NCBI GenBank assembly: GCA_017881725.1
Contig: JADGQO010000036.1
Span: forward strand, 1-34,923
Length of the DNA: 34,923 nucleotides
Direction of reading: 5' to 3'
Source of the DNA: Fibrobacteria bacterium
GTDB lineage: Bacteria; Fibrobacterota; Fibrobacteria; UBA11236
Part shown: in pieces, positions 7,700-28,403 of the stretch
Numbering within the stretch: position 1 is the stretch's first letter
How the letters are laid out: each line of letters opens with the position of its first letter
Notes under the pieces: generated by a model
What the model saw: only the letters and a program-made list of their open reading frames with translations
What the model was told of the DNA's origin: nothing
Databases searched by the model: none
Made by a program: the position numbers and the translations under genes

Positions 7700-9741
7700 T
7701 TTTTATCCGCCTTCGGTTGGGGCGGGGCGACAGGCGGAGGCGTCGCGGGGACTTTATCCTTATGGCAGGCCTTGCAATTCCGTTTTTCAAAAGGCGGGTG
7801 GGAGTTTTCCTGCAACAGCCCTTTCGCCTCGGAAACGTGCGGGTCATGGCACTTGCGGCAATCGATGACGGCGTCCTTGATGTTCAGATGCTTGGACTGC
7901 CAGGATTTTTCGTCGGTGTCGTGGCATTCCTTGCACAGGGCCGGCACGCCTTTGCGCAGCAGGGTTTCCTTCTTGCTGTTATGCGGCTTATGGCAATCCA
8001 GGCAGGTGCCGTCGGCCAGGGCCTCGTGGATTTCGCCCTTTTCCATCCGCTTCTTCAGGTCCTTATGGCAGCTCAGGCACAAATCCTTATCCTTGTCGAG
8101 GAGCAACTTCTTCACCTTGCCCATATGCGGCTGGTGGCACAGCATGCATTTTCCGTCCTTCACCGGCGCATGGTTGCTCACGACGTCCTTCAGGTCCTTC
8201 ATGGCGGTATGGCAGGAATAACACAAGGAGTCGCCCGGCAGCTTGAGTAACTTCGCATTCGGCGATGCGTGGGTCAGATGGCAGGAGTCGCAAGCCTTGT
8301 CCGCGAAGGGCTTGTGCGCGATGGTGTCGATCTTATTATTGAACAGCTTTTCATGGCACTTTTCGCACAGCTCGGATTTGGTGGGAGCCTTGAGCAGTTT
8401 GGCGTTGGCCGAAGAATGGGGTTCATGGCAATCGTTGCATTTGCCGTTGGTCACGGGAGAATGCACGTCCGCCTTTTTGTTCCACTCGCCGACCTGGGAG
8501 TGGCATTCGCCGCATAATGCGCGCCGCGGGGCCTTGGTCAGCTTCTCGTATTTCGAACCGTGCGACAAGTGGCAATCCAAGCAATCGCCGTCGCCGAAGG
8601 ATTCATGCACCACCTTGTTCTTGAATTCGGCCTTGGTCTTGGGATGGCACTCCAGGCACATGGGCGTGGTTTCCTTGGCGATGAGATGCTTCTTCTCATT
8701 GCCGTGAGCCTTGTGGCAGAGCAGGCAGTTTTTCTTGGCGGGCTCGTGCTGGGACAAAAGGTTGAGCTTGGGCCCGATTTCCTTATGGCATTCCAGGCAT
8801 ATTTGTTCCGGATCCTTCGCAAGTAACGCGGGTCGCGCGGAACCGTGGGCATCGTGACAAGTCGTGCATTTGCCCTTGGCGACGGGATCATGCGTGCCGT
8901 CCTTCACCATGTCTTTTTGCTTGTGACAGTTTAGGCATAGCTCGTTGGTATCGGCCTTGAGCTTGACGGGCTGTCCTGGCGCGGACGCCAAATGGCAGGC
9001 GCCGCATTGGTGCTTGGCGACGGGCGCGTGGATGGATCGAGTGAACAGGCCGGCCGTGTCGGAGGCGTGCGAGGCATGGCAGGCCGTGCATTTGGATCCG
9101 TCCATCGGGTATCCCTGGTGGGCGGCGACAAAGGCTTTTTTGTCCGGCTTGTGGCATTCGAAACAAAACCCTTTGGGATCCGATTTCAGCATGGAGGCGT
9201 TGTTGCTGCCGTGGGCCTCATGGCAGCTGAAGCATCCGTCCTTCATGGGCTTGTGGCGCTCTTTGCCTTGGAAATGCGAGCTGTCATGGCAATTGACGCA
9301 TAGCTTTTCCAAATCCGTTTTCAACATGCCCGGCGCTTTGCCCGCATGCGGCTCATGGCACACGTCGCACTTCCCTTGCGCTTCGGGAGGATGCACGTGC
9401 GCTTTGTTCAGACCCAGCTTTTCCTTATCGTGGCATTCCATGCACAGCTTGGCGTTGTCTTCCTTGAGCAACAAGATGGGCACCTTGCCGTGCGGCTTAT
9501 GGCATGCGAGACACTCTTCCTTCTTATAGGGCTTGTGCAACACATCGCCCGGGAAGGCATCTTTTTTATGGCAGCCCGCAGTGAGGCAATTGCTGGTTTT
9601 ATCGAAACGGCCGCCCGAACTGAATTGCGCCCACGCGCCCGGTGGGACGCAGAGTGCCAGCGCGAATACGAGCCAAGCCAGGCCGGCGCGGCCAGCGAGG
9701 CCGGCAAGACCCGCAGATAGGGAATTAAATCGATTTTCCAA
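7696..9741 (-). CDS. 26-heme cytochrome c
   Basis: 681 aa. N-terminal signal peptide (about 1-38, ending PPGAWAQ). I count 26 heme-binding motifs: the first is an expanded CX4CH (CLTAGCH), followed by 25 CXXCH, about one heme per 26 residues. Repeated CXXCHxPH/CXXCHxAHG units match the doubled-CXXCH family. The C-terminus is a short Pro/Lys-rich tail (PPPVAPPQPKADKK) that could tether or bind a partner. The start is TTG at 9741, 17 nt inside the prolyl isomerase gene, with a weak GGAAC ribosome site; no better start precedes the signal sequence. A role as a long electron wire spanning the periplasm or entering the outer-membrane complex is inferred from heme density and from the beta-barrel in the same operon. 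Confidence 0.94.
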   Translation of the reverse strand: MENRFNSLSAGLAGLAGRAGLAWLVFALALCVPPGAWAQFSSGGRFDKTSNCLTAGCHKKDAFPGDVLHKPYKKEECLACHKPHGKVPILLLKEDNAKLCMECHDKEKLGLNKAHVHPPEAQGKCDVCHEPHAGKAPGMLKTDLEKLCVNCHDSSHFQGKERHKPMKDGCFSCHEAHGSNNASMLKSDPKGFCFECHKPDKKAFVAAHQGYPMDGSKCTACHASHASDTAGLFTRSIHAPVAKHQCGACHLASAPGQPVKLKADTNELCLNCHKQKDMVKDGTHDPVAKGKCTTCHDAHGSARPALLAKDPEQICLECHKEIGPKLNLLSQHEPAKKNCLLCHKAHGNEKKHLIAKETTPMCLECHPKTKAEFKNKVVHESFGDGDCLDCHLSHGSKYEKLTKAPRRALCGECHSQVGEWNKKADVHSPVTNGKCNDCHEPHSSANAKLLKAPTKSELCEKCHEKLFNNKIDTIAHKPFADKACDSCHLTHASPNAKLLKLPGDSLCYSCHTAMKDLKDVVSNHAPVKDGKCMLCHQPHMGKVKKLLLDKDKDLCLSCHKDLKKRMEKGEIHEALADGTCLDCHKPHNSKKETLLRKGVPALCKECHDTDEKSWQSKHLNIKDAVIDCRKCHDPHVSEAKGLLQENSHPPFEKRNCKACHKDKVPATPPPVAPPQPKADKK

Positions 9742-11401
9742 AATAGTTCCGAATGTTTTCTTGGAAATACACGACGTTGGAATTCTTCTTCAGCGTGGCC
9801 AGAACGGCGTCCAACCCCGCCTTGAACTTGCGTTGGAACATGACCTGGCGGATTTGCATATCCACCTCTTCCATGGTCTTGATGCGGCCCTTGCGCCGAT
9901 CCTCGACATTGAAAATCACCCAGCCTTCGGTGGTGCCGTACGCGCCGGAATGGCCGCCCACAGGGAGGTCCTTCATCTGGCGTTGGACATTAGCCGGCAA
10001 GGTTTCCATGGTGACCCATTCTTCGGAACTGTTTACCAGGGTTTGCGTCGTACTTCCTTTGGGGATTTGCGAGGCCAGGTATTTGAAGTCCGTGCCCTTG
10101 TTGAGCCGCTGTACCCATTGATCGGCCGTGTCTTTGGACACGATCTTCACCTGGGTGAGCTTGAATTGATCCGGCAACCGGAAATCTTCCTGGTGCTGCG
10201 CGTAATAATCCGCAAACTCCTGCTTGTTGAATTTGATGTTCTTCACGACCATTTCCTGGATGTACATCTCGATGAGACAGCTATCCTGCGCCCGCTTCGC
10301 TGCGGCGTTCACCGATGGCTTGGCCAAATACCCTTTTTGTTTGACCACCGCGTCCAACGAGGCTTCCGCTTGCAGGGATTTGAGGGCCCGTTCCACCAAT
10401 TTTTGATACCCAACATTGCCGTCGCTCATGACATAGCGCGAGACCCGCGTGCGGAAAGCCTGGTCGGTCACGCCGGAACCGCCGGGAATTTGGATGACAA
10501 CGGTCGTATCGCCTTTGAGATAGTCGGCGCTGAGCACGCGGACGGAATCCATCGCGATGCGATCGAACGCCTTTTGATTGATGACGGGCGCGCGGCCAAT
10601 CTGGATTTGCGCCAGGAATTTCTCCCACGCCGCCTGTTTTTTTTCATCCAGAAGCATGGCGCGGATGCTGGCCTCGAATTTGGGCAACTCCTTGGGGTCG
10701 GCCGGCAGGGCTTTTTCCACCCGCAATAGGCTATAGGCGTCGTGGAAGGGATAGGGCGCGGACATCTCGCCCACCGGCAATTTTTCGGCGATGTCACGGA
10801 GTTGGTTTTCGATGTCGGCGTAATGCAACAGGGGATGCAAACCGCCATCGTAACGGCGCGTGTCCAGGGACATGGCCTTGGCCAGGGAATCCATGGAGAC
10901 GCCGGATTTGATTTCCGCCGCCCGTCGTTGCGCCTCCGCCAAGGTCGGCAGCGCCAAGGTCCGGATTTGGAAACGGCGGTAATACCGGGCGAAGGCCGTG
11001 GCGATTTCCGGCTTGGAGACCACGGTCGGAGGATGAAAATTCTGTTTCAGGTATTGTCCTAAACCGATGTTGGCGCGTATGGAAGCGACCGTAGCCTGGA
11101 CGTGCTCATCCTTGTCCATCTGCATGGCCTCGGCCTCTTGCAGGAGCAGAAGATCGTTGACGGCTTTCTTCAGCAAGTTTTCGTAATCGAACTTGGACCG
11201 ATCCGAATTGGTGAGTTTGCTGTGGAAATCGATGATCGCCTGATTCATGTCCTTGCCGCGTATGGTATCCAGACCAATCACGGCCAGCGGCAGTCCGCTC
11301 CCTTGGGGTTTGACGGCGGCGGCGGAACTCCAGGCGGGCAGAACGGCCAAGAAAAAACCGGCGGACCGAAGGATAGGGGAACTCATGGGCAAGGATTTCA
11401 T
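9725..11401 (-). CDS. Periplasmic peptidyl-prolyl isomerase with two parvulin-like modules
   Basis: 558 aa from the ATG at 11401, chosen because it forms an ATGA overlap with the upstream stop and begins a signal peptide (about 1-28); the frame is open further upstream but that would overlap the preceding gene. Organisation resembles SurA/PpiD-type chaperones: N-terminal helical region, a first PpiC/parvulin-like module near 131-232 (EIKSG..DSLAKAMS..DGGL..YSLLRVE) and a second near 395-505 (NKGTDFKYLA, DLPVGGHSGAY, GWVIFNVEDRRKG). Such proteins assist folding of exported and outer-membrane proteins. Its place between the beta-barrel/CsgG-like genes and the two giant cytochromes suggests it is dedicated to them. 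Prolyl isomerase genes are also known beside Geobacter filament cytochromes. Confidence 0.87.
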   Translation of the reverse strand: MKSLPMSSPILRSAGFFLAVLPAWSSAAAVKPQGSGLPLAVIGLDTIRGKDMNQAIIDFHSKLTNSDRSKFDYENLLKKAVNDLLLLQEAEAMQMDKDEHVQATVASIRANIGLGQYLKQNFHPPTVVSKPEIATAFARYYRRFQIRTLALPTLAEAQRRAAEIKSGVSMDSLAKAMSLDTRRYDGGLHPLLHYADIENQLRDIAEKLPVGEMSAPYPFHDAYSLLRVEKALPADPKELPKFEASIRAMLLDEKKQAAWEKFLAQIQIGRAPVINQKAFDRIAMDSVRVLSADYLKGDTTVVIQIPGGSGVTDQAFRTRVSRYVMSDGNVGYQKLVERALKSLQAEASLDAVVKQKGYLAKPSVNAAAKRAQDSCLIEMYIQEMVVKNIKFNKQEFADYYAQHQEDFRLPDQFKLTQVKIVSKDTADQWVQRLNKGTDFKYLASQIPKGSTTQTLVNSSEEWVTMETLPANVQRQMKDLPVGGHSGAYGTTEGWVIFNVEDRRKGRIKTMEEVDMQIRQVMFQRKFKAGLDAVLATLKKNSNVVYFQENIRNYFGKSI

Positions 11402-12576
11402 GGCTTGGGTACCTCGGTTTTCGCGATGCGGGCGATGCGCGAAATGCGCGTAAAGGGTTGCAGATCCAGTAATTTCCCGAGCTGATCGGTGATCAGGTTG
11501 GCGAAGGAATATTGACGTCCCACTCCGAAAATCCATTCGCTTTGCTGTCCGGCGGTCTGTCCGGACATGAGACCGGCTACCGAGCGGCTGCCGGTCCAAA
11601 GATACCGGACCGTCATTTCCACCTGCGGATTGGAAGTCTTCTCGTCGCCGCGTCCGGGAGAAAAATCATCCACCGATCCGGTGACGACGAAATCGACTCC
11701 GAAGCGATCTTTAAGCTCCGCCATGGTTTCGAGATCGATTTCTCCGCGCGGCATGGTTTTGCGCGTCGCCAGCAATTCCTCCACCACTCCCGGTTCGATG
11801 ACCTCGAGCTTCATGGACGCCAGTTTGGGCAACATCAGCGCGGTAACGATATCCCCGGCGCGGGATTCTTCGCTTTGATTGTCGAAAGGAATGATCACGG
11901 CGGAATATCCCGTCGCGGTGGCTGCCCGGCAAGCCGCGCTGACGCATGCGGGCATGCTGCGGAATAATTTATCGACGACGCGCTCCGTCAGTTTTCCGGG
12001 GTCGCCGATGCGTCCCAATCCGAAAGCCCAGACGCCGTCCTGTCCGGATTGCGCCGCGCTCGCGGCCCAGACCACCTTGGCCGTCCCGGCATCCAACAAC
12101 CGCAAGGTCACGCCGACCTCGGGGATCCGTCCATCCGCGTACACGTCGATGGCGCCGATGGCGATATAATCGATGCCTCCGTCGCGGCGCAAAGCCTCGG
12201 CTCCGGCGGCGCTGATGCCTCCCACGCTGCGGAGGCGATATTTCCGGATTAAGCCGCGCAGCGCATTCTCAGGATAAACCGTGAATCCACGTTTGCGAAA
12301 TTTATCGGCGAAAGCGGCAGCCACCCCTTGCGCCCCCTCCCGGCGTTCGGAAAGATTCAACAGCGGAAGGATAGCCACGGTTCCTTGACTTGGCACAGCC
12401 GGTTTTCCGGCCGCGACCTGGGCTTTTGGGATGGAGACGGATTGCGCGTTAGAGGGTGAAATGGAGGATGAAACGGAAGGCAACGCGATCGAGGCGGAAC
12501 CCGCATGGCATCGCGCCGAGAACGCCGCCAGGCCGGCGAATAAAATGGTTACAAGGGTGCGCGTGACGAACTGCAT
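11398..12576 (-). CDS. Secreted protein with two CsgG/GNA1162-like domains
   Basis: 392 aa with a signal peptide (about 1-25; SARCHA is not a good lipobox because of Arg before Cys). Two tandem alpha/beta modules share the CsgG/GNA1162/TolB-N-like layout: the first, near 67-210, starts TVAILPLLNLS and has GIDYIAIGAID; the second, near 225-370, starts SAVIIPFDNQS and has GVDFVVTGSVD. CsgG itself is the outer-membrane curli secretion channel and GNA1162-like proteins are outer-membrane-associated lipoproteins. Here a role in assembling or gating the cytochrome/beta-barrel complex is inferred only from context. It overlaps the next gene by ATGA and follows the related lipoprotein gene by 1 nt. 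Confidence 0.68.
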   Translation of the reverse strand: MQFVTRTLVTILFAGLAAFSARCHAGSASIALPSVSSSISPSNAQSVSIPKAQVAAGKPAVPSQGTVAILPLLNLSERREGAQGVAAAFADKFRKRGFTVYPENALRGLIRKYRLRSVGGISAAGAEALRRDGGIDYIAIGAIDVYADGRIPEVGVTLRLLDAGTAKVVWAASAAQSGQDGVWAFGLGRIGDPGKLTERVVDKLFRSMPACVSAACRAATATGYSAVIIPFDNQSEESRAGDIVTALMLPKLASMKLEVIEPGVVEELLATRKTMPRGEIDLETMAELKDRFGVDFVVTGSVDDFSPGRGDEKTSNPQVEMTVRYLWTGSRSVAGLMSGQTAGQQSEWIFGVGRQYSFANLITDQLGKLLDLQPFTRISRIARIAKTEVPKP

Positions 12577-12577
12577 A

Positions 12578-13189
12578 TTATCGTATAAGAGTTTTGATCA
12601 AACCTTTGACGCATCCGATGGTGACGCGGCTTTTGGTATCCGGCTCCAATCCGAATATCACCTGGAAAAAACTCCGGCCGCCTACCGTATAGCTCGCCGA
12701 CCAAACCGTGGTGCCTTTTTCGGCCTCCACCAAACGCGCGACCAAGGTCACCTCGCTGGGATTCGTACCGCCGTTGCGGCTCGCGGTGGATTCGTTCACG
12801 GATCCAAAGAATAGAGCCTGTACGCCGAGCGTTTTGGCCAGTTCGCGCATCTGATCCTTTTGCAAATCCCCGGTGCGTACCAGCGAGTATTTCTCCAAAG
12901 CCTTGGTCACCTCTCCGGGCTCGACCACGTCGAAGGCGCGCCTGGAAAGCAGTTCGGCGACGAATACCCGGGTTACCCGCCCGGCCGCGCCCGCGTCATC
13001 GGATAGGTTTTCGAAGGGAATCACGGCCACGGATTCGATGGATTTGAAATTGAAATCCGTGTTCAGGAACAGGCTGCCCCGATTGCCCGCGCACGAGGAC
13101 AGGAGACACGCCGCGCCGAACAGGAAGGCTGCATGAATAAAGCCCATTGACTTAGAAAGGTTCTGGACGGATTTTTTTAGCGACAACAT
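12578..13189 (-). CDS. CsgG/GNA1162-like outer-membrane lipoprotein
   Basis: 203 aa lipoprotein: hydrophobic signal followed by lipobox LSSC with lipidated Cys33. An internal Met15 could also start the signal peptide; the ATG at 13189 gives 5-nt spacing from the upstream stop. One alpha/beta module with the family's opening strand (SVAVIPFENLS) and LGVQALFFGSVNES, closely paralleling each half of the neighbouring double-domain protein, so the two genes look like products of duplication. No enzymatic motif. The short C-terminus after the domain (GCVKGLIKTLIR) lacks the long beta-hairpin region of true CsgG pores as far as I can see, so pore formation is unproven. Confidence 0.7.
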   Translation of the reverse strand: MLSLKKSVQNLSKSMGFIHAAFLFGAACLLSSCAGNRGSLFLNTDFNFKSIESVAVIPFENLSDDAGAAGRVTRVFVAELLSRRAFDVVEPGEVTKALEKYSLVRTGDLQKDQMRELAKTLGVQALFFGSVNESTASRNGGTNPSEVTLVARLVEAEKGTTVWSASYTVGGRSFFQVIFGLEPDTKSRVTIGCVKGLIKTLIR

Positions 13190-13194
13190 GGCGG

Positions 13195-15272
13195 TTAAAA
13201 ACCCGTATGGACGCCGACCATGGCGGACAAGGATTTGTCTCCGCCAGCAGTCCAGGCATCGTACTTGTTAATCTGGCAATACATCGTGCCATTTCTGGCA
13301 AACTCATAGTTGAGATAATACGCGTAACGCTCGGTTCCTACGCCGTTTTGGCGCGATGTAAACGCGGATTGGGCCCCGAAACTCACCTTCGGGACAATGT
13401 GCCAGTTGAGGTTATACTCCTGATTCACGGAAATCGCCCCATCTTCGAGCACATCGGTTTCACCGGTGATAAGTATGGTTTGAGTGAGTCTAAGCGTAAG
13501 GTTTCCACTAAACCTGTTTTGCGCAATTCGCATGCCGGAATGCGTCTCGCGGGAAGTTCTGTAAGCGTAGGTCATCATCGCCCCCAATTTTTTGAAAACG
13601 TCGCCGTCTAGGGATAATTGGTAGTTCCAAGTTTCAAATTCCTTATCGGACTCCAATTGAAGATTGCGGTTGAATCCCACCTCGCTGGACAAGTTCAAGG
13701 CCGGCAAGAGGCTCCCGTGCAGCTGCGTCAGGACGGACGCGTTTTCCTGGGCTTCGCGCCCTTGGAAAAAACTCCAAAGATCGGTGACCGATAGACCCAA
13801 GTCCAGGGCGTCCCAAGGATGGTATTGCAAGTTGTAATTCATCAGGCGAGTCTCGGTGGATAACTGGTCGTCGCCGACGTTGCCTTGGTCATCTTGAACG
13901 CGCGCCGTGCCGGAAACGAATTGCGAAAAGCGCTGATGGCTGGACACGGCGACATACATATCATTTTTTTTTTAACCTCTGGCGAGGAAAAGGGTTCGTT
14001 TTGGAAGCCCATGTCCAGCGACAGGTCATACCTATCGGAAATCAGGTAGGTGGAGTTCATGCTGAGGATTTGCGTGGAGGTTTGCTGGAAATCGTGGCTG
14101 CGCCCCACCTCCGACCGCATGGCCTCAAGTTCGGTGATGGCCACGCGGCCCGTATCGGCTGTGCCTTTGAAAACCACCTTGAGGAATTGGCTGGTCGTAT
14201 TCGGAAAACTGATTTCAAAACGCTGGTAGGCCGCGTCGAAACGGCTTTCCACCGGATCCGTCAATGCCTCCCATTGCATTTCGTTGCCGTAAAAATCCGC
14301 CTTGGACACGTAAATGGTCCAAACGCCCGGTGATAAGGTCTTTTTGTTGGTGTACAGGTATACGGTGCCAATTTCCTTAGGACTTCCGAAATCCATGGCG
14401 ATATTCCCGTCCAGGTTTTCCTGACCCACTTCAATGTCCGGCGTCACGGCCGCCGTTTTATTACCGTCCAACAGGCCCGTCACGGAATCCAGCACGCTGT
14501 ACTGGGGCGAGGGATCGACCGCGTAGAATACGCGCTGCACCGGGACCCATTGCAGGATGGGGACGCCCGCGGGTTTCGCATAGTCGCTGGTCAAATAACT
14601 CAGGGCATAATCGCTGCGTACGCGCAGTTTCTGGTTCAGGAAGGCTTGGTTTTGGTTCCAGCGAAAGGTTTGTGAGGTCCTCTGCTCCACGGCGGCGAGG
14701 TTCGCGTTTTCCGTTTGTTGGCCATTGGCATTGTACGCGAAGTTTTGGGTTCCGTACTGCCAACTGAGCCCTCCCCGCACGGCGCTCTCGTAAATGTCGC
14801 GGTCGGCGGGATTCTCCGGCGTATACAGATGATCGGCGTCCAATCCCAGGTTGAGTCGGGGCCAGGTCTGGTTTTTGGTGTGGAAACTCAGGCTGCCGTT
14901 ATCGCGCGTGATATCCTGATCGGAATTATCCGATTGCGAAATTTGCCGCTCCCCCAAGGCGCCCACGGTGAACCAGGGGGTATTCCAGGTCAATTGGCCC
15001 ATGGGCGCCATTTGGCTGTTGTAGGATCGCACGCCATCCATTTCCTGGCCTTGATGGTCGAAATGCAAGGCCGCGTCGCCGGATAAATAAGGCGTGAACG
15101 TGCGGTTGATGGACAAGGCGTATTTCTGGTTCAAGACGGACACGTAGCTCCCGTTCAACCGCATGTCCGTCTGGGTAACATCCACGTTACCCGTCAGGTT
15201 CAAGGGATCCTGGGCTGCGGCCGCTCCCAGGCACGCGCATAGGCCAAGGCATGCTTTCATTCCGGTTTTCAT
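13195..15272 (-). pseudogene. Outer-membrane beta-barrel with inserted discoidin-like domain; frame broken at an A10 tract
   Basis: One gene read in two frames. The first part (15272 to about 13965) has a signal peptide (1-20), alternating beta-strand segments and, near residues 262-386, a jelly-roll segment resembling F5/8 type C (discoidin) domains (VYLYTNKKTLSPGVWTIYVS, FLKVVFKG, VAITELEAM). At a run of ten A on the coding strand (T10 at 13964-13973) the frame changes; the continuation ends at 13195 and shows more amphipathic strands finishing VGVHTGF with a terminal Phe typical of barrels. Adding one A, or removing two, restores an open frame of roughly 690 codons (EVKKK-NDMYVAVSS). A sequencing or assembly indel, or true slippage, could explain it, so inactivity is not established. 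Starts with an ATGA overlap; likely the porin partner of the multiheme cytochromes. Confidence 0.8.
13964..13973 (-). repeat. A10 homopolymer at the frame break of the barrel gene
   Basis: Ten consecutive T on the plus strand, A10 on the coding strand. Upstream reading gives PEVKKK; the two flanking frames join if the run is 11 or 8 long. It could be a technical indel or a slip-prone site. Confidence 0.9.
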
Positions 15273-17527
15273 TGGGCGAAACTCACTGCTTCGGGATTTT
15301 TACCCGTGTCCAGGTATCCCTGGTTTTCCCAACTGTTGGCGTTGTAAAAACCGATTTTCCCCGCATTGGGGAACACCACGACCAGGCGCTTGGTTTCCGG
15401 GTCCAGGGCGATTTTTCCGGGCGTGCGGTCGAGGTTGATGGAACCGATTTCCAGGTTGTTTTCCGGTTTAAGGATAGCGATGCTGTTGCATTCCGGAAGC
15501 GAGGCGAACAGGACGCGCAGCGTCGGTTGCCAGGCGAATCCTTGCGCGGGCGCGCACATCCTTAAGTTGGCCAGCACGGAGTTACGCGCGATGTCGACGA
15601 AGGCCACTTGCCTTTGCGCCGGCAAACTGACCATCAGTCTCCGGTCCCCCCCGGTATACACAACCTCCCCCAGGTTGCCTGCGAAGCGTTGCACCGTCGC
15701 GACCGCAAACGAGGCCGGATCAATGCCGAAGAGCCGTTCCGATTCGGGGCTGGCGACATAGACCACCTGGTTTTGTTCATCCACAGCAAAGGAGGCTGGA
15801 GCCGCCTCCAGCCGAACACGTCGAGTTTCCCGGTACCCGGCGAGATCAATGATGGATACGCTGTTGGATCCGGCGTTCAGGACATAGAGCCGGTTCTGAT
15901 CCGCCGACACGGCGAGACGCATGGGATCATCGCCCACCCGCAAGGCGATACTCCTCTGGAGCCGGCAGGTATGCGCGTCGATCACGGACACATTGTCCGA
16001 CCCGGAGTTCGCGGTAAAAACCTCCTGGCGGCGCGACGCATAGGCCAAGTCCCGGGGATTTTGTCCCACCGCGACGACGTCCACCACCCGCTGCCCGAAC
16101 CTGTCCGCGCAAGTCACGGTATGCGAACCGGAATTCGCGATGAACATGAGTGATCCCGTCGCCACGGTCCGGGCCCCTTGCACGGTCAGGGAAGGGCGCA
16201 AAGCCTTGCCGTCGCTGGCATCCTTTCCGGATTCCCAAACGAGGAAGATGGGGAAGGCGCTCCCGGGCCGCACGTCGATTCCGAGCGGAATTTCGACGCG
16301 TTGATCGGGATATGCAGACAACGGTTGGCCCGCATGCGGGGCGGCCCGGATGTGTTTGAGGCACACGCCGAGCGACGAATATTGGCCGACCGGAAGCGGC
16401 TGCTCGCACAGCAGGACTTGCCTGCCGGAAAGCTCCTTGGACTTGAAAGCCGGAAACTCCAAGGACAACCTTAGTGTGTCCTTCGCTCCGCAGAACTCCA
16501 AAGTATCCACGACCATTTCCACCTCATGGTCATGGCCCGCCGGTGACTCGAAATAGACAGCAGCCAACCCTGTGCCCGGGGCGGAAGCCCATGCCATGCG
16601 CACCGAGGCGAACATGAGAGCAAAAACGAAAATGGCCCAGCCCAAGGCCGGGGACCGGGAAGGATTCTGCGAGGGATTGGTTTGCGCCTCTGCGTTTTTT
16701 CGAAAGTCCGGATCCGCAATTTTTTCTTGCGTCAATCCAACGGGCAAATAGTAAAGGCTGAAACGCGAGCGGTGGGCCATGGCATAAGATCGAAATTCCG
16801 GATCTCGGAGTAATGGGTGGCGGCGCGACACTACATAAAGCGGACGGCTGCGACCATGGCAAAGCCCATCCAGGAATTCGCAGATCGAAGCGGCGGACAC
16901 CGGCCCGGTGTAAAGCTTGAAATGCTCCACTCCGCGCGCATCGACGGCAGAGAGCTGCAGCAAACCGTCGCGGATTTTTTCGGGCTCCCATAGGAAATAA
17001 ATTTCCGCACGATTCAGGCGCGCGTCGGTTTTGATTTTCACATATTCTGCGGCAAACCATTCCCGTTCCGCCTCGGTGGCCGCGTGCGCGCCAAGCCTGG
17101 ACGAGGGTTTCGTCCGGAAAAATTTGTACAAGGGAGGATGCGCGACTACGCCCAATTGAACGAATAACCGAGCCACGGAGGCCGGGCTTAATTCCAAGCC
17201 ATGCTGGTATCTCAGTAAATCGCCTACGAGTTCACGCGTCCATAGCCCGCCCCCCAAATGGAAATCGTTCGGCGCGTGTGCCACGAGCGTCTTGAGTACT
17301 GCTTCCGACTGCTCCAGCTCCAATTTTTTTGGACGACCCACGATCCGCTTGGCCTTCAACGCGCCCGTTCCACCATCCCGGAATTTTGCCATCCACCGGT
17401 AAATGCAGGAGCGCGAGAGACCCAGCGACTGGACCACCGACGCGGGACTTTCCCCGTTCGCGACCTTATCCATCGCCAGGAGGCGGATGGATTCCAAGGT
17501 CATGTGATCGTATTTGCGGCCGTCCAT
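15269..17527 (-). CDS. Fusion: catalytically dead IS630-type transposase region + signal anchor + YVTN beta-propeller
   Basis: 752 aa in one uninterrupted frame. Residues 1-65 form a helix-turn-helix (SPASVVQSLGLSRSCIYRWM) and 70-135 a winged HTH with the IS630-type pattern (LWTRELVGDLL, SPASVARLFVQLGV). Residues 155-265 follow the DDE fold, but the first acidic residue is Trp180 (EIYFLWE), the expected DN pair is Ser-Arg (YVVSRRHP) and the final Glu motif is gone (LPVGLTQ). A hydrophobic segment (294-308) ends in a signal-peptidase-like AWASA (to 316). The rest, from about 410, is a YVTN-type seven-blade propeller (FIANSGSHTV, FTANSGSDNVSVID, YVLNAGSNSVSIID). It could be a membrane-spanning DNA-binding sensor, or a secreted propeller fused to a relic. 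First gene of the operon; ATGA overlap with the barrel gene. Confidence 0.85.
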   Translation of the reverse strand: MDGRKYDHMTLESIRLLAMDKVANGESPASVVQSLGLSRSCIYRWMAKFRDGGTGALKAKRIVGRPKKLELEQSEAVLKTLVAHAPNDFHLGGGLWTRELVGDLLRYQHGLELSPASVARLFVQLGVVAHPPLYKFFRTKPSSRLGAHAATEAEREWFAAEYVKIKTDARLNRAEIYFLWEPEKIRDGLLQLSAVDARGVEHFKLYTGPVSAASICEFLDGLCHGRSRPLYVVSRRHPLLRDPEFRSYAMAHRSRFSLYYLPVGLTQEKIADPDFRKNAEAQTNPSQNPSRSPALGWAIFVFALMFASVRMAWASAPGTGLAAVYFESPAGHDHEVEMVVDTLEFCGAKDTLRLSLEFPAFKSKELSGRQVLLCEQPLPVGQYSSLGVCLKHIRAAPHAGQPLSAYPDQRVEIPLGIDVRPGSAFPIFLVWESGKDASDGKALRPSLTVQGARTVATGSLMFIANSGSHTVTCADRFGQRVVDVVAVGQNPRDLAYASRRQEVFTANSGSDNVSVIDAHTCRLQRSIALRVGDDPMRLAVSADQNRLYVLNAGSNSVSIIDLAGYRETRRVRLEAAPASFAVDEQNQVVYVASPESERLFGIDPASFAVATVQRFAGNLGEVVYTGGDRRLMVSLPAQRQVAFVDIARNSVLANLRMCAPAQGFAWQPTLRVLFASLPECNSIAILKPENNLEIGSINLDRTPGKIALDPETKRLVVVFPNAGKIGFYNANSWENQGYLDTGKNPEAVSFAQ

Positions 17528-17661: not shown

Positions 17662-18726
17662 TCAGATCTTCGGACGGTCGTAGGCGTCCTTGACATGGCA
17701 CTTGTTGCACAGCGAACGTTGGTTAACGCTCGTGTACGGATTGGCCAAGGCATAGGATCCAGAAGCGACGCCGTCATCCGACAGGAAGGTGACGTTGAAG
17801 TCCCAGCGTCCGGCATTCGGAGCGGAGGAACCATGGGCGCGATGGCAGGTCAAGCACATGACTTGGCTGGTGGCGGTCGGAGAGGCCGTCGAGGCAATCG
17901 TGTTGGCCGGATCCTCGAAGGGAACTTGCGCCAAGTACGAGGTGGCCGGATTGCCGCCGGTGATATCGTCCGTGCCGTTATACAGCGAGTAGTTGCTGGC
18001 GATGGTGCCGCCCAAGGGCATGCCCGACGGATGGATGGACTTGGTGCCGCCGGCTTGCGCATGGAAGTCTCCATGGCAATTGCCGCACCAGCCGCTCATG
18101 CCGCTCTTATACGCGGTATGGTTGGTGTTGGTTTCCGTACCACCGGTGCTTCCGACGTCCAGGCCCACGGCCACGGGAGCGGGATTCAGGAAGGTATAAT
18201 TGCCTTGGGTCACTACGCGGCCCGCGCCGTACAGCATGCGGAAATCGGAGGTACCATGCGGATCATGGCAGCTGGAGCAGCCCAAAACGCCTGCGGGGTA
18301 GTTGCCGCCGGGTGATTTGGTCAGGGTGGCGTCCGGTGACAAGCCGAATGCCGGGGCATTCAAATTATGGCCGGCGCGATCGCCCGAAATGGGACTGGTG
18401 GCTCCACTATGACCGTCGTTCAAATTGGCGGCCTTTAAGAACACAAAATTACCGCCGCCCTTGGTGGGACCAGGTACCAACGGATCGGCAGCTAAGAGCG
18501 CGCCGTTGCTGGTGGCATGGCAACCCAAGCACACGTCGCTGGGCGTTGATTTCTTGAGCAACCATCCATTTCCATTGGGATGATCGGGGTCAACAAGCAC
18601 GCCTCCGGCGCTGTTGTGCATGGTATGGCAGCCGTTACAATGGGCCGCGCCTCCATCATGGAATGCGAAAACGTTGGTGGTCAACCCTGCAGCTATTACG
18701 AGTGCAGTGGCCATAATCTTAATCAT
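17662..18726 (-). CDS. omcS-like: OmcS-like hexaheme cytochrome c, predicted filament (nanowire) subunit
   Basis: 354 aa (Geobacter OmcS is somewhat longer). Signal peptide 1-21 (TTNVFA) gives a mature N-terminus FHDGGAAHCNGCHTMHNS that aligns residue for residue with recalled OmcS (FHSGGVAECEGCHTMHNS). Six CXXCH motifs occur in the OmcS order: CNGCH, CLGCH, CSSCH, CGNCH, CLTCH, CNKCH, with family landmarks GGNYPAGVLGCSSCHDPHG, GMSGWCGNCHGDFH, AQVPFEDP and CNKCHVKDAYDRP. His37 (His16 of the mature form) is kept; in OmcS filaments this His ligates heme 5 of the next subunit, so polymerisation is predicted. The gene has its own strong ribosome site and terminator and lies between the maturation operon and the export/conduit operon. 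Homology is judged from recalled family sequence, not a search. Confidence 0.92.
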   Translation of the reverse strand: MIKIMATALVIAAGLTTNVFAFHDGGAAHCNGCHTMHNSAGGVLVDPDHPNGNGWLLKKSTPSDVCLGCHATSNGALLAADPLVPGPTKGGGNFVFLKAANLNDGHSGATSPISGDRAGHNLNAPAFGLSPDATLTKSPGGNYPAGVLGCSSCHDPHGTSDFRMLYGAGRVVTQGNYTFLNPAPVAVGLDVGSTGGTETNTNHTAYKSGMSGWCGNCHGDFHAQAGGTKSIHPSGMPLGGTIASNYSLYNGTDDITGGNPATSYLAQVPFEDPANTIASTASPTATSQVMCLTCHRAHGSSAPNAGRWDFNVTFLSDDGVASGSYALANPYTSVNQRSLCNKCHVKDAYDRPKI

Positions 18727-19227: not shown

Positions 19228-19245
19228 ATGGCGCCGAAGCGCCAT
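19228..19245 (-). terminator. UUCG-tetraloop terminator of the maturation/regulator operon
   Basis: On the minus strand ATGGCGC-TTCG-GCGCCAT forms a 7-bp stem with the very stable UUCG loop, overlapping the last base of the stop codon of the NHL-repeat gene and followed by TTT. This is a compact intrinsic terminator closing the 25374-19245 transcript before the hexaheme gene. Confidence 0.75.
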
Positions 19246-20249
19246 CACTTTGAAGAGGCTTGATCCGGAATCAGGAAGGCGACCGGTTTGCAAACCTGAA
19301 TCACGTTGTTCATGACTTGGCCGACGATGATCTCGTTCCGGTTGTTCACCGCGATGCGTTCCGGCCCATAGAACCAGCCCGGGCCTTCTCCCATGCCGCC
19401 GAACTCGCCGATGAATTTCCCGTCTTGCGAATAGCAGACGACGTTGAAGCGCTCCTTGTCGAGAATGTGCACGACCCCATCGCGGTTGACGGCCACGGCG
19501 ATGGGAAAAGCCAAATCGCCGGTGGCCGAGCCCTTGGATCCGATGGTCCGCACGAATTCTCCCGCGGTGGTGTATACGGCGACCATGCCGGTCATGGAGA
19601 GCGGCACATAGATGAGATCGCCGTAAATGGAAATGGAGCCGTAAACCAGCTCGTTGCGTTCCTTTTCCGGAAGGAACCGCGCGACCGGAATGCGTTTCGA
19701 GAATTTTCCCGTGGTATCCAGTGAAAGGATTTGGTGGGAAACCTGATCCAACAAATACACCGTTCCGTCCGATCCTGCCGCCAAGCTGGAAATCGCGGAA
19801 GCGTTGCCGCCCAGCAAGTTCGCCAGATCATAAGTCGCAAGGAACTCGCCGTCGAAATCGAATTTCACCAGATTCCGGCCCGATGGGCTGGAACCCAGCA
19901 CATAAATGTAGCCCTCGCCCGTGACGGCCATATCCATCGGCATGCTCATATGTTCGCCGGCGTAGAATTCAAACCGGAAAACCATATTGCTGTCGAAAAT
20001 CAGGATGCGGTTATTCCCCGGGTCCACCACGTAGAGTTCCTGGAATTCCGGGGCGAAAACAATCCGGCCCGGCTCCTTGATATGATTAGCCTTTCCCGGC
20101 GGCGCGACATATTGGGAAAAAATAGCCGGCAGCGACAGCTCGGCCGTTCTCTTCACGGGGCGCGCGGACGCGGTCGGCTTGTCGGGCGCCCCGGACCAGG
20201 CCAAACCGAGGGCCAGCACCGTCGCAACGATTGTGAATCGGCGCTTCAT
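19245..20249 (-). CDS. NHL-repeat (six-bladed propeller) exported protein
   Basis: 334 aa from the ATG at 20249, which follows the preceding stop by 2 nt and begins a signal peptide (MKRRFTIVATVLALGLAWSG); the open frame further upstream overlaps the regulator gene and was rejected. The rest is a beta-propeller of NHL type: FAPEFQELYVVDPGNNRILIF, VTGEGYIYVLG, SDGTVYLLDQVSHQILSLD, AVNRDGVVHILDKERFNVVC, AVNNRNEIIVGQVMNNVIQV. No catalytic motif. NHL proteins recur beside Geobacter filament cytochromes, probably as periplasmic scaffolds; that role is inferred here from its position directly upstream of the hexaheme gene. It is cotranscribed with the degenerate NtrC-like gene and ends in the UUCG terminator. 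Confidence 0.85.
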   Translation of the reverse strand: MKRRFTIVATVLALGLAWSGAPDKPTASARPVKRTAELSLPAIFSQYVAPPGKANHIKEPGRIVFAPEFQELYVVDPGNNRILIFDSNMVFRFEFYAGEHMSMPMDMAVTGEGYIYVLGSSPSGRNLVKFDFDGEFLATYDLANLLGGNASAISSLAAGSDGTVYLLDQVSHQILSLDTTGKFSKRIPVARFLPEKERNELVYGSISIYGDLIYVPLSMTGMVAVYTTAGEFVRTIGSKGSATGDLAFPIAVAVNRDGVVHILDKERFNVVCYSQDGKFIGEFGGMGEGPGWFYGPERIAVNNRNEIIVGQVMNNVIQVCKPVAFLIPDQASSK

Positions 20250-20251
20250 AA

Positions 20252-21601
20252 TCAGTGCTCCAGGTGGTATTTCTGGAGTTTGATCCGGAAAGACGAATAG
20301 GGGACTTTCAGGTTGCGGGCCGCTTCCTTCATATTCCCGTTGGTCGCATGCAAAGCCTTTTTGATCACCATGCATTCCACTTGCGCGACGATGTCCTCCA
20401 GTGATTTATCCGAATCCAAATCGAAGTTGCCGAGATGATCCTGGGTGATTTCCTCCGGCAGGTGATGGCGGAATATCACCGGGCCGGGCACGGTAAGCAC
20501 CAGGCGCTCAATGATGGTTTCCAGTTGCCGGATATTCCCGGGCCAACGGTAATTGACAAGCAGCTTCATGGCGTCCGGATACACTTCGAAATGCGTTTGC
20601 GGCGAAAACTTGGCGAGAAAATACTCCACCAGTTGCGGGATGTCGTTCTGCCTCTCCCGCAGCGGCGGCATGTCGATGGGCAAAATACTGATGCGGTAAT
20701 AAAGCTCGTACCGGAACTGGCTTTTCTGCGTCAGCTCCAGGAGGTTGGCCCCGGTGCCGGCGATGATCCGCGCGGGCGCGGGCACGGGCTTGTCCCCGGC
20801 GGGACGCGCCGCTTGGGCGGCCTTGGCCTGGAAAAACTCGATCAGTTTGAGCTGGGTTTCCAACGGGATATGCTCGACTTCGTCCAGGAACAGCGTGCCT
20901 CCGGAGGCCATTTCCATCGCGCCTTTTTTTTGGATAACTCCAAGGTTACCCGTATCTTGAAGGTTACCGAATAATTCCGCGTCGAAAAGTTCCTTGGGAA
21001 CGATGGAACAGGAAAACTTCAGGAACGGCCCGCGCCGCCGGTCGCTGTTCTGATGGATGGCCTTGGCGACTTTGTCCTTGCCGGTGCCGATCTCACCCTG
21101 GATCAGCACCGTCCCCTGGTTATGGGAGACCACCTCGATTTTCTCGTACAACTGGTGCATTTCGGGCGTTTGGCCGATCAATTCGAAAAAGCGGTACTTG
21201 CGCGCGAGCAAGGAAGTCTGCAGTTCGGCGGGATGGGAAAAGCGGGCCGGCGCCTCCATTTGGTGGAAAAACAAATCCAGCGATTCCGCGGTGACGGGTT
21301 TGCGCAGAAACTCGCAGGCCCCTTTGTTCAACAGTTGGTGGGCCACGGAACTGCCGTTCATGTCCCCGGTCAAGGCAACGAACAGGGCCGGATTTTCGCG
21401 CCGGAGTTCCTGGAGATCCAGGGCATCCTGTTCATGGAATTGGCCGAGGTTCCAGATCAATCCATTCGGCGCCTCCTTGCGGATGACCGGCAGGGCCTCC
21501 GTCGCGGCGCGGAACATCAAGGGTTCGCAACCGCGCGCGGAAAGCATCGGCCCCAATTTGGCCAGGAAGGCTTCGTCCTTATCGATGACGCAGATTTTCA
21601 T
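20252..21601 (-). CDS. NtrC-like regulator with degenerate receiver and no GAFTGA loop
   Basis: 449 aa. The receiver-like domain (1-110) keeps acidic residues D7, D9 and E10 and K101, but the phospho-acceptor is Asn51 (LIWNLGQ). The AAA+ domain keeps Walker A GEIGTGKD (169-176), Walker B GGTLFLDEV and the arginine-finger region (FRYELYYRI). The sigma54-contacting GAFTGA stretch is absent: where it belongs (about 212-224) the sequence reads NLQDTGNLGVIQK. A Fis-type HTH closes the protein (about 412-446). It therefore probably does not respond to phosphorylation and cannot open sigma54 promoters in the usual way; TyrR-like sigma70 control or repression are alternatives. It sits 25 nt after CcsA and 2 nt before the NHL gene. 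Confidence 0.88.
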   Translation of the reverse strand: MKICVIDKDEAFLAKLGPMLSARGCEPLMFRAATEALPVIRKEAPNGLIWNLGQFHEQDALDLQELRRENPALFVALTGDMNGSSVAHQLLNKGACEFLRKPVTAESLDLFFHQMEAPARFSHPAELQTSLLARKYRFFELIGQTPEMHQLYEKIEVVSHNQGTVLIQGEIGTGKDKVAKAIHQNSDRRRGPFLKFSCSIVPKELFDAELFGNLQDTGNLGVIQKKGAMEMASGGTLFLDEVEHIPLETQLKLIEFFQAKAAQAARPAGDKPVPAPARIIAGTGANLLELTQKSQFRYELYYRISILPIDMPPLRERQNDIPQLVEYFLAKFSPQTHFEVYPDAMKLLVNYRWPGNIRQLETIIERLVLTVPGPVIFRHHLPEEITQDHLGNFDLDSDKSLEDIVAQVECMVIKKALHATNGNMKEAARNLKVPYSSFRIKLQKYHLEH

Positions 21602-21626: not shown

Positions 21627-23540
21627 TCATGTCGGCAGCGACTTGGCGTCCGCTCTTTTCACCAGGTAAAGCATGGCCGCCAAAAAGACCGCCTCGCCGC
21701 CGACATAGGCCGAGAGGGCCGTCGCCACGCCGGTGGTGAAGCCGTAAGAGTGGAGACCCACGCCCAGCAGGTTGATGCCGAACCAGGCCATCATCACGAC
21801 GATGATGCCGAGCACCGCGCCCACGGCCATGCCTAGCGCCCCGATCATCTTGCCGACCTTGGCGTGGAACAGGATCGAACCCCAAAGCACAATCATCAGC
21901 GCGCCGTTTTCCTTGGGATCCCAGCCCCAGAAACGGCCCCAGCTTTGATCCGCCCAAACTCCTCCCAATACCGTGCCGATGAAGGAGAAAATCAATCCGA
22001 AGGCCAGGATGGCGTAGGTCATGCGGATCATGGCATCGAGCTTTTCCCCGGCCTTATTGTTCCAGGCCCGCTGGATGATGTAGAAGTGGCCCAAGACCCC
22101 GGCCAGGCACATTCCGGCGTAACCCAGGCTGATGGTAATCACGTGCGTGGAAAGCCAGAAATTCGAATTCAATACGGCCACGAGCACGCCGATGGTATCC
22201 CCGTCCGTATCGTAACGGCCCGAGAGCAAAAGCACCAGGAAGCCCGTCATCGATCCGACCAAAACGCCGAAGCCTTTGCGGTTGAAGAATTCCAGAGCCA
22301 GGCCCAGCACTCCGCCTACCCAGGAGACGAACAGGAAGGTTTCGAACAGGTTCGACACCGGCGCGCGCCCGCTGATGGCCACGCGCAAGGCCAGACCCGC
22401 GCCTTGGATCAGGGCTGCGGCGATCAGCAAAAACACGGTGGGCCAGTAAATCCATTTCCGCATCACCATCATCCCGATGAGAGCGCCGAGGATGGCGAAG
22501 CCCAACAGGATTTTGGTCAGATAGAACGGATCCAGCGCGTTGTATGCCAACTCCAATTTGATGCGCGTGGGATTCACCAATCCGGCTCCCAGCTTTCCCG
22601 TAAATGCCGTAATGTTGGTCACGGCTTGATCAAACTCCTCCGGTTGTCCGGCGATATATGCCGAGGCCATGGCATGCAAAGATTGGATGGCGGCTTTGAC
22701 TTCCGGATCCATGTTGGGCTTGCCGACCAATGACCACGGGCCGATCCACATTTCGGAGCCCTTTTCCATCGGCGGGATCAACGCCGGCGGGAAATCGCGA
22801 TAATGCTGGGTCCAATTGGTGAAGTTCTGGAACAGATGGTAAGCGCCCATTTCGGCGGATGACCAAGTCGTCGGATCGCGCGCTCCGGGACCGCCATTTT
22901 CGCCGGCCATCAACGGTTGCACCAGGGAAGCCATTTGGCCCATATGCCCACGGATATCCATGTAGCTGTAGGGTTGCGGCCGGGGGTCAAGACCCAGCGC
23001 CTTGGCCGTGGCCGTGTCGGTCACCTTGAAATCCGGACTGGGAATGGCGAAAAGAAACGCGTTGGAAATCCCCACGTAAACGCTGAGGTTGTTGGCGACG
23101 CGGATGATTTCCGATTCCACCGGCGTGCGCTTCTTCTCGTCCACCTTCATGGCGGCATCGGCCAGATCGGAAAGCTTCGAGATGGCGGGGCTGATCTGCG
23201 CAAAGGTATAACGGCTGTCCGACTGCGGCTCCACGCCGATGGAATAAACCACGTCCGGGTTGTTGATGCGGAAAACCTTGTCGTCCATCGCATCCTTGGG
23301 CGTGAACATCACGCGCGCCAGCCATTCTACCGCCGCTTGGCCCTTGTAGGCGCTGCGGGCGCTGAGCTGCATCAGGGTCACGCGCGCATAGGTATCGAGT
23401 GGCTTGACGCGCCCGCCGTCCAATACGGGCATGGCCTTGAATTTGTCCAAGGAAATTTTCGGGGAGGCGACGGCTGAGAGGCAGGCTGACAACCCGATCG
23501 CTCCGGCCAGGGAAATCTTGAAGAGCGCTTGGAATTTCAT
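21627..23540 (-). CDS. ccsA: CcsA/ResC-type cytochrome c biogenesis protein (heme handling) with large N-terminal extension
   Basis: 637 aa, roughly twice a minimal CcsA. Residues 1-25 form a signal peptide and about 26-335 a soluble extracytoplasmic domain (PVLDGGRVKPLDTYARVT). The remainder is polytopic with the heme-binding WWD-type segment WGRFWGWDPKENGALMIVLW and the C-terminal NLLGVGLHSYGF signature of CcsA/ResC. In System II this protein exports heme and, with ResB/CcsB, attaches it to CXXCH cysteines on the outer face of the inner membrane. It overlaps resB by ATGA (23537-23540). A dedicated maturation pair beside genes needing dozens of hemes makes functional sense. Confidence 0.92.
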   Translation of the reverse strand: MKFQALFKISLAGAIGLSACLSAVASPKISLDKFKAMPVLDGGRVKPLDTYARVTLMQLSARSAYKGQAAVEWLARVMFTPKDAMDDKVFRINNPDVVYSIGVEPQSDSRYTFAQISPAISKLSDLADAAMKVDEKKRTPVESEIIRVANNLSVYVGISNAFLFAIPSPDFKVTDTATAKALGLDPRPQPYSYMDIRGHMGQMASLVQPLMAGENGGPGARDPTTWSSAEMGAYHLFQNFTNWTQHYRDFPPALIPPMEKGSEMWIGPWSLVGKPNMDPEVKAAIQSLHAMASAYIAGQPEEFDQAVTNITAFTGKLGAGLVNPTRIKLELAYNALDPFYLTKILLGFAILGALIGMMVMRKWIYWPTVFLLIAAALIQGAGLALRVAISGRAPVSNLFETFLFVSWVGGVLGLALEFFNRKGFGVLVGSMTGFLVLLLSGRYDTDGDTIGVLVAVLNSNFWLSTHVITISLGYAGMCLAGVLGHFYIIQRAWNNKAGEKLDAMIRMTYAILAFGLIFSFIGTVLGGVWADQSWGRFWGWDPKENGALMIVLWGSILFHAKVGKMIGALGMAVGAVLGIIVVMMAWFGINLLGVGLHSYGFTTGVATALSAYVGGEAVFLAAMLYLVKRADAKSLPT

Positions 23541-24742
23541 TTCACCACCTCACCGGGCGACTTGACATTAGCGGATTTCCCGGCGTGATTTCCGTAACGG
23601 AAGAGCATCACCAGGAAATGGAAAAGCATGCCGCAGAAAATCATGGCTCCGCTGATATACGGCAGCAGTTTGCCTGAATTCTCCACCACGGCGAAAACCG
23701 AGGACTCATGGCCCTGGGCGTCCACGTCATAAGAGCTTTGATAAAAAGTGAAGTCCTTATAATGCAAGGGATGGTTCATGTTGATGCGGGTCTTGAAACT
23801 CATCGCGCCTTCGGCTTTGACCTCCACGTCGCTTTGATAGGTCCGCGCGATGCCCGTGCCCGGATACTCCTCTTTCTTGACGTCGATAAGGCGGATGCTT
23901 ACGGGCAGCGGATGGCGCTGCTTACGTAGGGTGACCTGGATGAGATGGCCTTGCACGTCCACCGTGAGCGGTTCCAATTGGCCGCCATAGAGCAGAAGCT
24001 CTTGGGCATCGCCGCCGGCGGGCTTGATGCGCAGCCGGGCTCCGGCAATATTATCCTCCGGATCCTGAGCGGGCCTGCGCGTGACCAGGTTGCCGAGCTT
24101 GCGCATCTCGGCGGGGCCGGACATGCCTGTGGTGTCCGCAGTCGGGTCGCAATTACGGTAATAATTCTCCAATATGGCTTTGAATCCGAATTCGGAGAAG
24201 TCGATCTCCTCGCCCACTTGGCCGGTCCCGAGTTGTACCGCGGAAACCTTGCGCTCCAACCCGCCTTCGCCGTCGCTCCACACGGCCAATTCCCAAGCGC
24301 GCCGATCCAGGGATACGTTGGATACCTCCTTTTCGGCGAGCGGAAGATAGGACTCCTGGGCGAACTTGAAGGTCACGAAAGAACCGGCCAGGAGGAACAG
24401 GAATCCGGAATGCGTGAGGATGTTTCCGATATTCGCGAAGCTGTAAGTGACGCGGAAAACCATGGAGGCGATGAGGTTGAAGAACAAAACCCACATTACC
24501 AGTTGCGCGCCGGGTAGGGGAAGAAATCCCCCGACTAAAAAGTACCATGAGAAGAAAAAACGGGTTTGGGCCGCGTACAATCCGGCCTCGGCCTGATAAA
24601 TCGTTCCCCAAGCGGTGAGGATCAACAAGAGCAGGAGGCATACCACTGATATCTTGAGGGATGCCAGGCGGGGCGCCCAGGATCGCAGCGTCGGCATGGA
24701 GCCGAACCATGCCTTCGCCCTTGCGTCGATGGGCGAGCTCAT
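23537..24742 (-). CDS. resB: ResB/CcsB-like cytochrome c biogenesis protein
   Basis: 401 aa. Three hydrophobic helices in the first 130 residues (LKISVVCLLLLLILTAW near 28-44; LVMWVLFFNLIASMVF; HSGFLFLLAGSFVTF), a large extracytoplasmic domain (about 130-355) and a last TM helix (YISGAMIFCGMLFHFLVMLF), the ResB/CcsB topology. HPLHYKDFTFYQSSY in the soluble domain is a ResB hallmark. It partners CcsA in thioether heme attachment. ATGA overlaps join it to the upstream lipoprotein gene (24739-24742) and downstream ccsA. Confidence 0.92.
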   Translation of the reverse strand: MSSPIDARAKAWFGSMPTLRSWAPRLASLKISVVCLLLLLILTAWGTIYQAEAGLYAAQTRFFFSWYFLVGGFLPLPGAQLVMWVLFFNLIASMVFRVTYSFANIGNILTHSGFLFLLAGSFVTFKFAQESYLPLAEKEVSNVSLDRRAWELAVWSDGEGGLERKVSAVQLGTGQVGEEIDFSEFGFKAILENYYRNCDPTADTTGMSGPAEMRKLGNLVTRRPAQDPEDNIAGARLRIKPAGGDAQELLLYGGQLEPLTVDVQGHLIQVTLRKQRHPLPVSIRLIDVKKEEYPGTGIARTYQSDVEVKAEGAMSFKTRINMNHPLHYKDFTFYQSSYDVDAQGHESSVFAVVENSGKLLPYISGAMIFCGMLFHFLVMLFRYGNHAGKSANVKSPGEVVK

Positions 24743-27836: not shown

Positions 27837-28403
27837 ATGTCCATTAAGCGCAATCTTCTCATCGGCGGAATTCTCGCCCTGGCAACCGGCCTCATCCAGC
27901 TAGGCTGCGACAAGTCGCCCACCGGCGCAGCCGCGTCCAAGCATGGGGTTGACCCCTTGGCATGGTTCCGGAGCGCACCCATCAAGCAACCGGTGGAATT
28001 CAATCACAAGATTCATATCGATTCCGAGCAAATGGAATGCACCGATTGCCATCGGTACGCCAACAAAGCTTCGCATGCCACGCTGCCCAAGATAGCGGAT
28101 TGCAAAGACTGCCATTCCCAACCCCAGGGAAAGAGCCCCGAAGAGGCCAAGGTGAAGCAGTATCTCAAAGAGGGAAAAGAAATCCCCTGGATAGTCGTGA
28201 ACCGACTGCCCGGCCACGTTTACTTCTCCCACCAGGCCCACGTGAATTACGCAGAGATGAAGTGCTGGGATTGCCATACCGACATGCGCAAGGAGACCCA
28301 CCCAATTGCCCGCTCCGATATCAGTTACCTGTCCATGGGGAAATGCATGGAATGCCATAAGGAGAAAGGTGTGGGCCTCGATTGCCTGAAATGCCACAAA
28401 TGA
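27837..28403 (+). CDS. Pentaheme cytochrome c subunit (class III type), membrane-anchored
   Basis: 188 aa. The N-terminal hydrophobic segment (7-22) ends QLGC, a poor lipobox, so an uncleaved anchor or lipidation are both possible. Five CXXCH motifs: C68-H72, C89-H93, C143-H147, C170-H174 and C183-H187, with spaced His residues (FNHKIH, FSHQAH) typical of class III bis-His cytochromes. It is the first gene of the module with the molybdopterin-family, ferredoxin and NrfD subunits, matching the cytochrome subunit of Qrc (QrcA, hexaheme) or alternative complex III (ActA, pentaheme). Electrons would pass between the iron-sulfur subunit and soluble periplasmic cytochromes. It ends in an ATGA overlap with the next gene; ribosome site AGGAAG. 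Confidence 0.9.
   Translation: MSIKRNLLIGGILALATGLIQLGCDKSPTGAAASKHGVDPLAWFRSAPIKQPVEFNHKIHIDSEQMECTDCHRYANKASHATLPKIADCKDCHSQPQGKSPEEAKVKQYLKEGKEIPWIVVNRLPGHVYFSHQAHVNYAEMKCWDCHTDMRKETHPIARSDISYLSMGKCMECHKEKGVGLDCLKCHK

Follow-up and report, generated by a model that had tools for sequence, protein, structure and literature searches.

In OmcS of Geobacter sulfurreducens (PDB 6ef8 and 6nef) twelve histidines serve as heme ligands; eleven come from the subunit itself, while the remaining one, which binds heme 5, is supplied by an adjacent subunit (available portion of PMC6584659). The same ligation of heme 5 by a neighbour's histidine is given in the available portion of PMC7096707. Among the hexaheme cytochromes of Geobacter, the accessible part of PMC12977616 states only of OmcS that it forms a wire, with OmcT, OmcJ and GSU2501 left there without an assigned function. 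That part of the source also links the eight-gene block GSU2500-GSU2493, which lies behind omcS-like genes, to the maturation and secretion of OmcS, and gives GSU2495 as a 26-heme protein. Proposed roles in this osc operon are folding for OscH, secretion for OscE, OscF and OscG, and morphology for OscD (PMC13194489, in part). Homologs of OmcS outside Geobacter have already been reported, including in syntrophic sulfate reducers and other bacteria (PMC10553843 and PMC10954620, each in part), so the gene described here adds a member to a known family.

Here we analyse a window of 34.9 kb, the whole stretch of DNA under study, which is one contig of a 5.2-Mb genome (235 contigs, 90% complete) and puts an OmcS-family gene and a nearly complete osc-type block in a lineage remote from Geobacter. 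A literature search covering Fibrobacter, Fibrobacterota and related phyla found no paper describing such a case; the principal publication about the osc genes lay outside that search and may list such genomes.

A compact member of the OmcS family

The cytochrome gene and its signal peptide are as follows.

17662..18726, minus strand: OmcS-family hexaheme cytochrome, 354 aa (from sequence, heme ligands and predicted fold)
aa 1-21 of this gene: signal peptide, assigned by eye, leaving a mature protein of 333 aa from base 18663

The first-pass annotation had read the gene as an OmcS-type cytochrome with the six heme motifs in the OmcS order, and the translation bears this out. The six CXXCH motifs run CNGCH, CLGCH, CSSCH, CGNCH, CLTCH and CNKCH, and the mature N-terminus FHDGGAAHCNGCHTMHNS and the landmarks GGNYPAG, CSSCHDPHG and CNKCHVKD that it had listed are all found in the 354-aa product. 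A phmmer search against all PDB chain sequences, the homology check it had called for, returned OmcS as the nearest and sole match at E up to 1 (E=7e-42), in two significant stretches covering query residues 22-162 and 160-336, and the full-length similarity is significant; Pfam reports generic heme-motif families only. Judged by sequence, the similarity to OmcS is far beyond chance, and we regard the gene as encoding a secreted member of the OmcS family, with the family membership firm.

Cutting the signal peptide before F22, a site chosen by eye, would give a mature protein that begins with FH, the first residues of OmcS in the PDB. Given this cut, His37 of the precursor becomes mature His16, and F1, H2, C9, C12, H13 and H16 occupy the same columns as in OmcS without a gap, as the earlier claim of a heme-ligating histidine at the same mature position requires. 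The two proteins are thus alike in the order of the six CXXCH motifs, in the twelve histidines, mature His2 and His16 included, and in predicted fold, whereas the window protein is 74 residues shorter when mature (333 versus 407 residues), is 32-40% identical to OmcS depending on the alignment, and belongs to a separate deep clade and a different phylum.

Predicted fold

The structural model, built from 34 aligned sequences, is of moderate quality (mean pLDDT 62.8, pTM 0.67), and in residues 1-36, which include the His16 region, the pLDDT lies below 50 for all but one residue. When the single-chain model was searched against the PDB with Foldseek, the sole match was OmcS 6ef8 (E=4.7e-15), with a TM-score of 0.65 normalised to the query and 0.55 normalised to the target, and VIA-align, comparing one chain, superposed model and OmcS with a Z of 20.1 and an rmsd of 3.7 Å over 292 residues. 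The single-chain overlay on OmcS points to an OmcS-like fold, with model confidence only moderate.

Heme ligands and the inter-subunit histidine

The heme ligands were compared in an alignment of 35 sequences, namely the window gene, a paralog from the same genome, OmcS from the PDB, and 32 of 80 pattern-scan loci, themselves the best 80 of at least 88 relatives; left out were L034 and L035, which are incomplete, and 46 others that are distant or duplicate. Twelve histidine columns stand out, the six CXXCH histidines and those at OmcS mature positions 2, 16, 110, 147, 257 and 335, and these match the number of histidine ligands in OmcS. Eleven of the columns are filled in all 35 sequences and His16 in 34, the exception being L036 (Geomonas oryzae), while the next-best columns reach 23/35, 19/35 and 19/35. 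Both search patterns contain His13 and the pair His144/His147, so that part of the conservation seen for these three comes from the search itself; the patterns do not include His2, His16, His110, His257 or His335. The window protein has the six CXXCH motifs and the six further conserved histidines, which make up twelve axial ligands.

We take His16 to be the residue that OmcS donates to heme 5 of the neighbouring subunit. Its presence was the earlier argument for a filament, and here the argument weakens: His16 is kept in 34/35 family members, and a wider comparison finds its counterpart well beyond them. In 45 further pattern-scan loci, among the matches listed and leaving out L073 (a second match on the L022 contig), a histidine three residues after the first heme histidine occurs in 35, and in 25/25 of those with exactly six CXXCH motifs. 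Because an equally spaced histidine is found in all of these distant hexahemes, the histidine alone cannot show filament formation. His16 is also kept in genes sitting directly before the propeller gene, which on our reading is the OscC position, and OscC is, in the accessible part of PMC12977616, not known to form wires. On sequence comparison, then, the inter-subunit histidine appears common to the whole OmcS family and not specific to filament formers, and it should not by itself serve to call nanowires in genomes. The distant hexahemes that share CXXCHxxH at heme 1 (L038-L066) come from Chloroflexi, Neobacillus, Planctomycetota and others.

The adjoining osc-type genes

Stronger evidence for a filament than His16, as far as gene content can suggest one, is the osc-type block beside the gene. 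Downstream of the OmcS-like gene and on the same strand lies the following run.

15269..17527, minus strand: beta-propeller protein, OscD-like, from about aa 298 (Pfam YNCE and HTH), with an N-terminal IS630-like fusion in frame and a hydrophobic segment
13195..15272, minus strand: beta-barrel-like protein, OscE-like, in two frames (putative barrel; no Pfam match)
12578..13189, minus strand: LpoB/GNA1162-like lipoprotein, OscF-like (Pfam just under curated cut-offs)
11398..12576, minus strand: LpoB/GNA1162/CsgG-like protein, OscG-like (Pfam just under curated cut-offs)
9725..11599, minus strand: PpiC-type peptidyl-prolyl isomerase, OscH-like, its actual start probably internal to the ORF
7696..9741, minus strand: large multiheme cytochrome, OscI-like, 681 aa, 25 CXXCH and one CX4CH
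6488..7699, minus strand: 16-CXXCH cytochrome, OscJ-like, 403 aa

By domains and order, the run has the content D-E-F-G-H-I-J beside an omcS-like gene, the letters being given by order and domain and the G. sulfurreducens Osc proteins being known here by description, not by sequence. It resembles the block GSU2500-GSU2493 in having propeller, barrel-like, two LpoB-like, PPIase, 26-heme and 16-heme genes in order, but differs in the fusion of the propeller to an IS630-like region, in the broken frame of the barrel gene, and in the CcsB/ResB genes and sigma-54 regulator that stand upstream. The genes upstream are listed next.

19245..20375, minus strand: NHL/six-bladed propeller secreted protein, upstream of the OmcS-like gene, probable start ~20249
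20252..21601, minus strand: sigma-54-dependent response regulator, a possible regulator of the run (domain matches)
21627..23540, minus strand: CcsB-type cytochrome c maturation protein (genus relatives present)
23537..24742, minus strand: ResB-type cytochrome c maturation protein (relative present in the same-genus genome G003)

Related loci vary in how much of this block they carry. Of the eight osc-type parts sought, at least two were found in 21 of 32 related loci, one in 2 and none in 9, counts to be read with many loci cut off at contig edges and with cytochrome matches that may be generic heme repeats. L007 (Krumholzibacteriota) has seven parts in the window order, L017 has all eight in a different arrangement, and propeller and LpoB-type genes are common to the window and the Geobacteraceae loci L023, L024, L026 and L033.

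The broken frame of the OscE-like gene raises the reading that the locus is decaying and exports nothing. The frame changes at an A10 run (13964-13973, minus strand), at a gene that has one open frame in L004 and L007, and another contig (C143) carries a 151-bp remnant of one more OmcS copy. A homopolymer run is, however, a typical site of sequencing or assembly error, and the reading frames of OmcS and the remaining block genes are uninterrupted; we consider decay improbable.

The extra N-terminal residues of the propeller ORF (aa 1 to about 290) resemble an IS630 transposase (HTH and the start of the catalytic region) and are followed by the hydrophobic segment. The IS630 Pfam match is below its cut-off, the five relatives checked align to the ORF only from about residue 270-356 onward, and within the genus the IS630-like part has one weak match (25%) in 1/5 other members. 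A sigma-54 promoter before the OmcS-like gene, an idea suggested by the adjoining regulator, was rejected: a scan of the window allowing up to 2 mismatches gave 5 matches against 6.64 expected, none of them in front of that gene.

Position in the family tree

In the tree the window gene pairs with its 61% identical paralog (89/74) within a clade (100/100) from Krumholzibacteriota, Delongbacteria, Calditrichota, Acidobacteriota and other MAGs. Under midpoint rooting, a 99/96 branch parts this clade from a group, mostly Geobacter-related and Nitrospirota, in which OmcS and OscC-position genes both occur. The window gene does not form a group with OmcS that leaves out OscC-position genes (e.g. 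L018, L021, L033), and the tree does not tie it to OmcS rather than to them. Its placement and the relatives of the host's own phylum do agree with the earlier view that the organism is not a Geobacter.

The nearest OmcS-like genes (L004-L011, L014 and L067, from Krumholzibacteriota, Delongbacteria, Calditrichota, Acidobacteriota and two MAGs) are 50-66% identical to the window gene and similar in length, and several have osc-type genes; they differ from it in phylum. No osc-type genes were found in the available DNA around L008 and L010. In the compact clade, nature provides a shorter variant on which to probe the minimum required for polymerisation and export.

A filament subunit or a carrier

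Because the full ligand set is present and an assembly block is attached, we consider it rather probable that this compact OmcS-family protein is secreted and forms a heme filament by head-to-tail polymerisation, assembled by the adjoining osc-type genes. The filament inference of the first-pass annotation is in this sense reasonable, mainly through the attached block and not through His16. A possible source of electrons lies on the plus strand.

27837..28403, plus strand: small cytochrome, 5 CXXCH, head of a Qrc-like gene set
28382..30832, plus strand: molybdopterin-oxidoreductase-family subunit
30825..31757, plus strand: 4Fe-4S protein
31592..33082, plus strand: NrfD-type membrane subunit, possible quinol-side electron source

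This set at 27837-33082 (cytochrome, molybdopterin protein, 4Fe-4S protein and NrfD) presumably resembles a Qrc-type quinone complex. Quinol electrons would exit via an inner-membrane complex, perhaps this one, and would then pass through the 26- and 16-heme cytochromes into the filament. In this scheme the task of the OscH-like isomerase would be to maintain subunits in a competent state, and their export would fall to the OscE/F/G-like barrel and lipoproteins. On joining, each subunit would use its His16 to complete the next one's heme 5.

Several findings count against a filament: the window gene is parted by the 99/96 branch from the group with OmcS, it is the only copy at the locus and stands in the OscC position, its subunit is 74 residues shorter than that of OmcS, the His16 region is poorly modelled, the OscE-like gene is frame-broken in the assembly, and 9/32 related loci have no osc-type part in the DNA examined and 2/32 have one. 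Whether cells need OmcS for current production or Fe(III) oxide reduction is itself a matter of dispute (PMC13194489 and PMC11077965, each in part).

The main rival reading makes the protein an OscC-like (GSU2501-like) cytochrome that cooperates with the osc machinery, either as a carrier in the periplasm or at the cell surface or as an assembly factor, and does not itself polymerise. Like OscC/GSU2501 of the Geobacter osc operon, compared here by description only, it belongs to the same hexaheme family and stands directly before the block, at a locus where it is the sole copy, although it lacks a specific tree grouping with OscC-position genes. The tree does not place it with OmcS rather than with those genes either. 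In some Geobacter genomes only a GSU2501-like gene accompanies the block (PMC12977616, in part), and oscC is listed as periplasmic (PMC13194489, in part). Against a carrier, we found no sequence features that separate OmcS from OscC roles, and all twelve histidines are kept; with eleven ligands from the same chain, heme 5 would stay incomplete unless a partner joined. We regard the carrier as unlikely, yet as an alternative to be taken seriously beside the filament subunit.

Genome context and origin of the locus

The flanks of the block have relatives within the genus. CcsB is 66% identical to a protein of G003 and an M4 peptidase at the other contig end 63% identical, with the search for both confined to the genus, and interrupted DNA synteny with G003 extends across 21.7-28.4 kb. 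The NHL, 26-heme and barrel genes, on the other hand, have no match in five other genus members, and OmcS has none (E up to 0.001) in 166 further genomes examined in the phylum, among them 88 with a completeness of 90% or more and a contamination of 5% or less. The OscF-like protein finds matches in 14/167 phylum genomes including its own, the others at no more than 30% identity, and in the genus a 27% match in one other member. Paired-CXXCH matches number 26 in the host genome, most of them in the osc-type block, versus 0 or 1 per genome in five genus members.

With flanking genes that have relatives in the genus and OmcS, NHL, barrel and 26-heme genes that have none, it is likely, on this comparison of sequences, that the block was gained horizontally from another phylum and came to lie between flanking genus genes; such a gain is a simpler reading than loss elsewhere. 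We hold it possible, though a little short of probable, that compact OmcS and the osc-type secretion block move as a unit between phyla, a wire together with its assembly module, and that a single species thereby obtained a conductive filament of smaller subunits in a phylum, probably Fibrobacterota, that otherwise lacks OmcS. Foreign base composition was set aside as a sign of transfer: the GC and GC3 of the block, with GC3 taken without the NHL gene and the propeller part, are near those of the flanks.

The same absence of OmcS from the 166 other genomes could mean that the contig was binned from another organism. The CcsB and M4 peptidase on this very contig tell against such contamination, even if closer relatives outside the genus are possible, as do the synteny with G003 and a second full-length paralog elsewhere in the genome, and we judge it very improbable.

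That second OmcS-family gene, the 61% identical paralog (L002, 1402-2499 of contig C52), adjoins a gene with two CXXCH motifs; none of the window's osc-type genes was found on its 19-kb contig. The 151-bp remnant (L003, 1488-1638 of contig C143) shares 80% identity with the final 150 bases of the OmcS gene in the window and adjoins a metal-ATPase-like gene. A 20-kb stretch of G003, in which no osc-type genes were found, carries three other multiheme cytochromes along with a porin-like gene near ResB/CcsB (L093, 1708-5849). In the window, two small monoheme cytochrome genes (CTQCH; ~26317-26721 and 27368-27766, plus strand) form an apparent tandem duplication with a counterpart in G003. The probable assignment of the host to Fibrobacterota draws on Fib_succ_major matches, which number 64-72 per genome in genus g4 of the same class, while only 1/14 control genomes have any; the host genome has 1 and the members of its genus 0-2.
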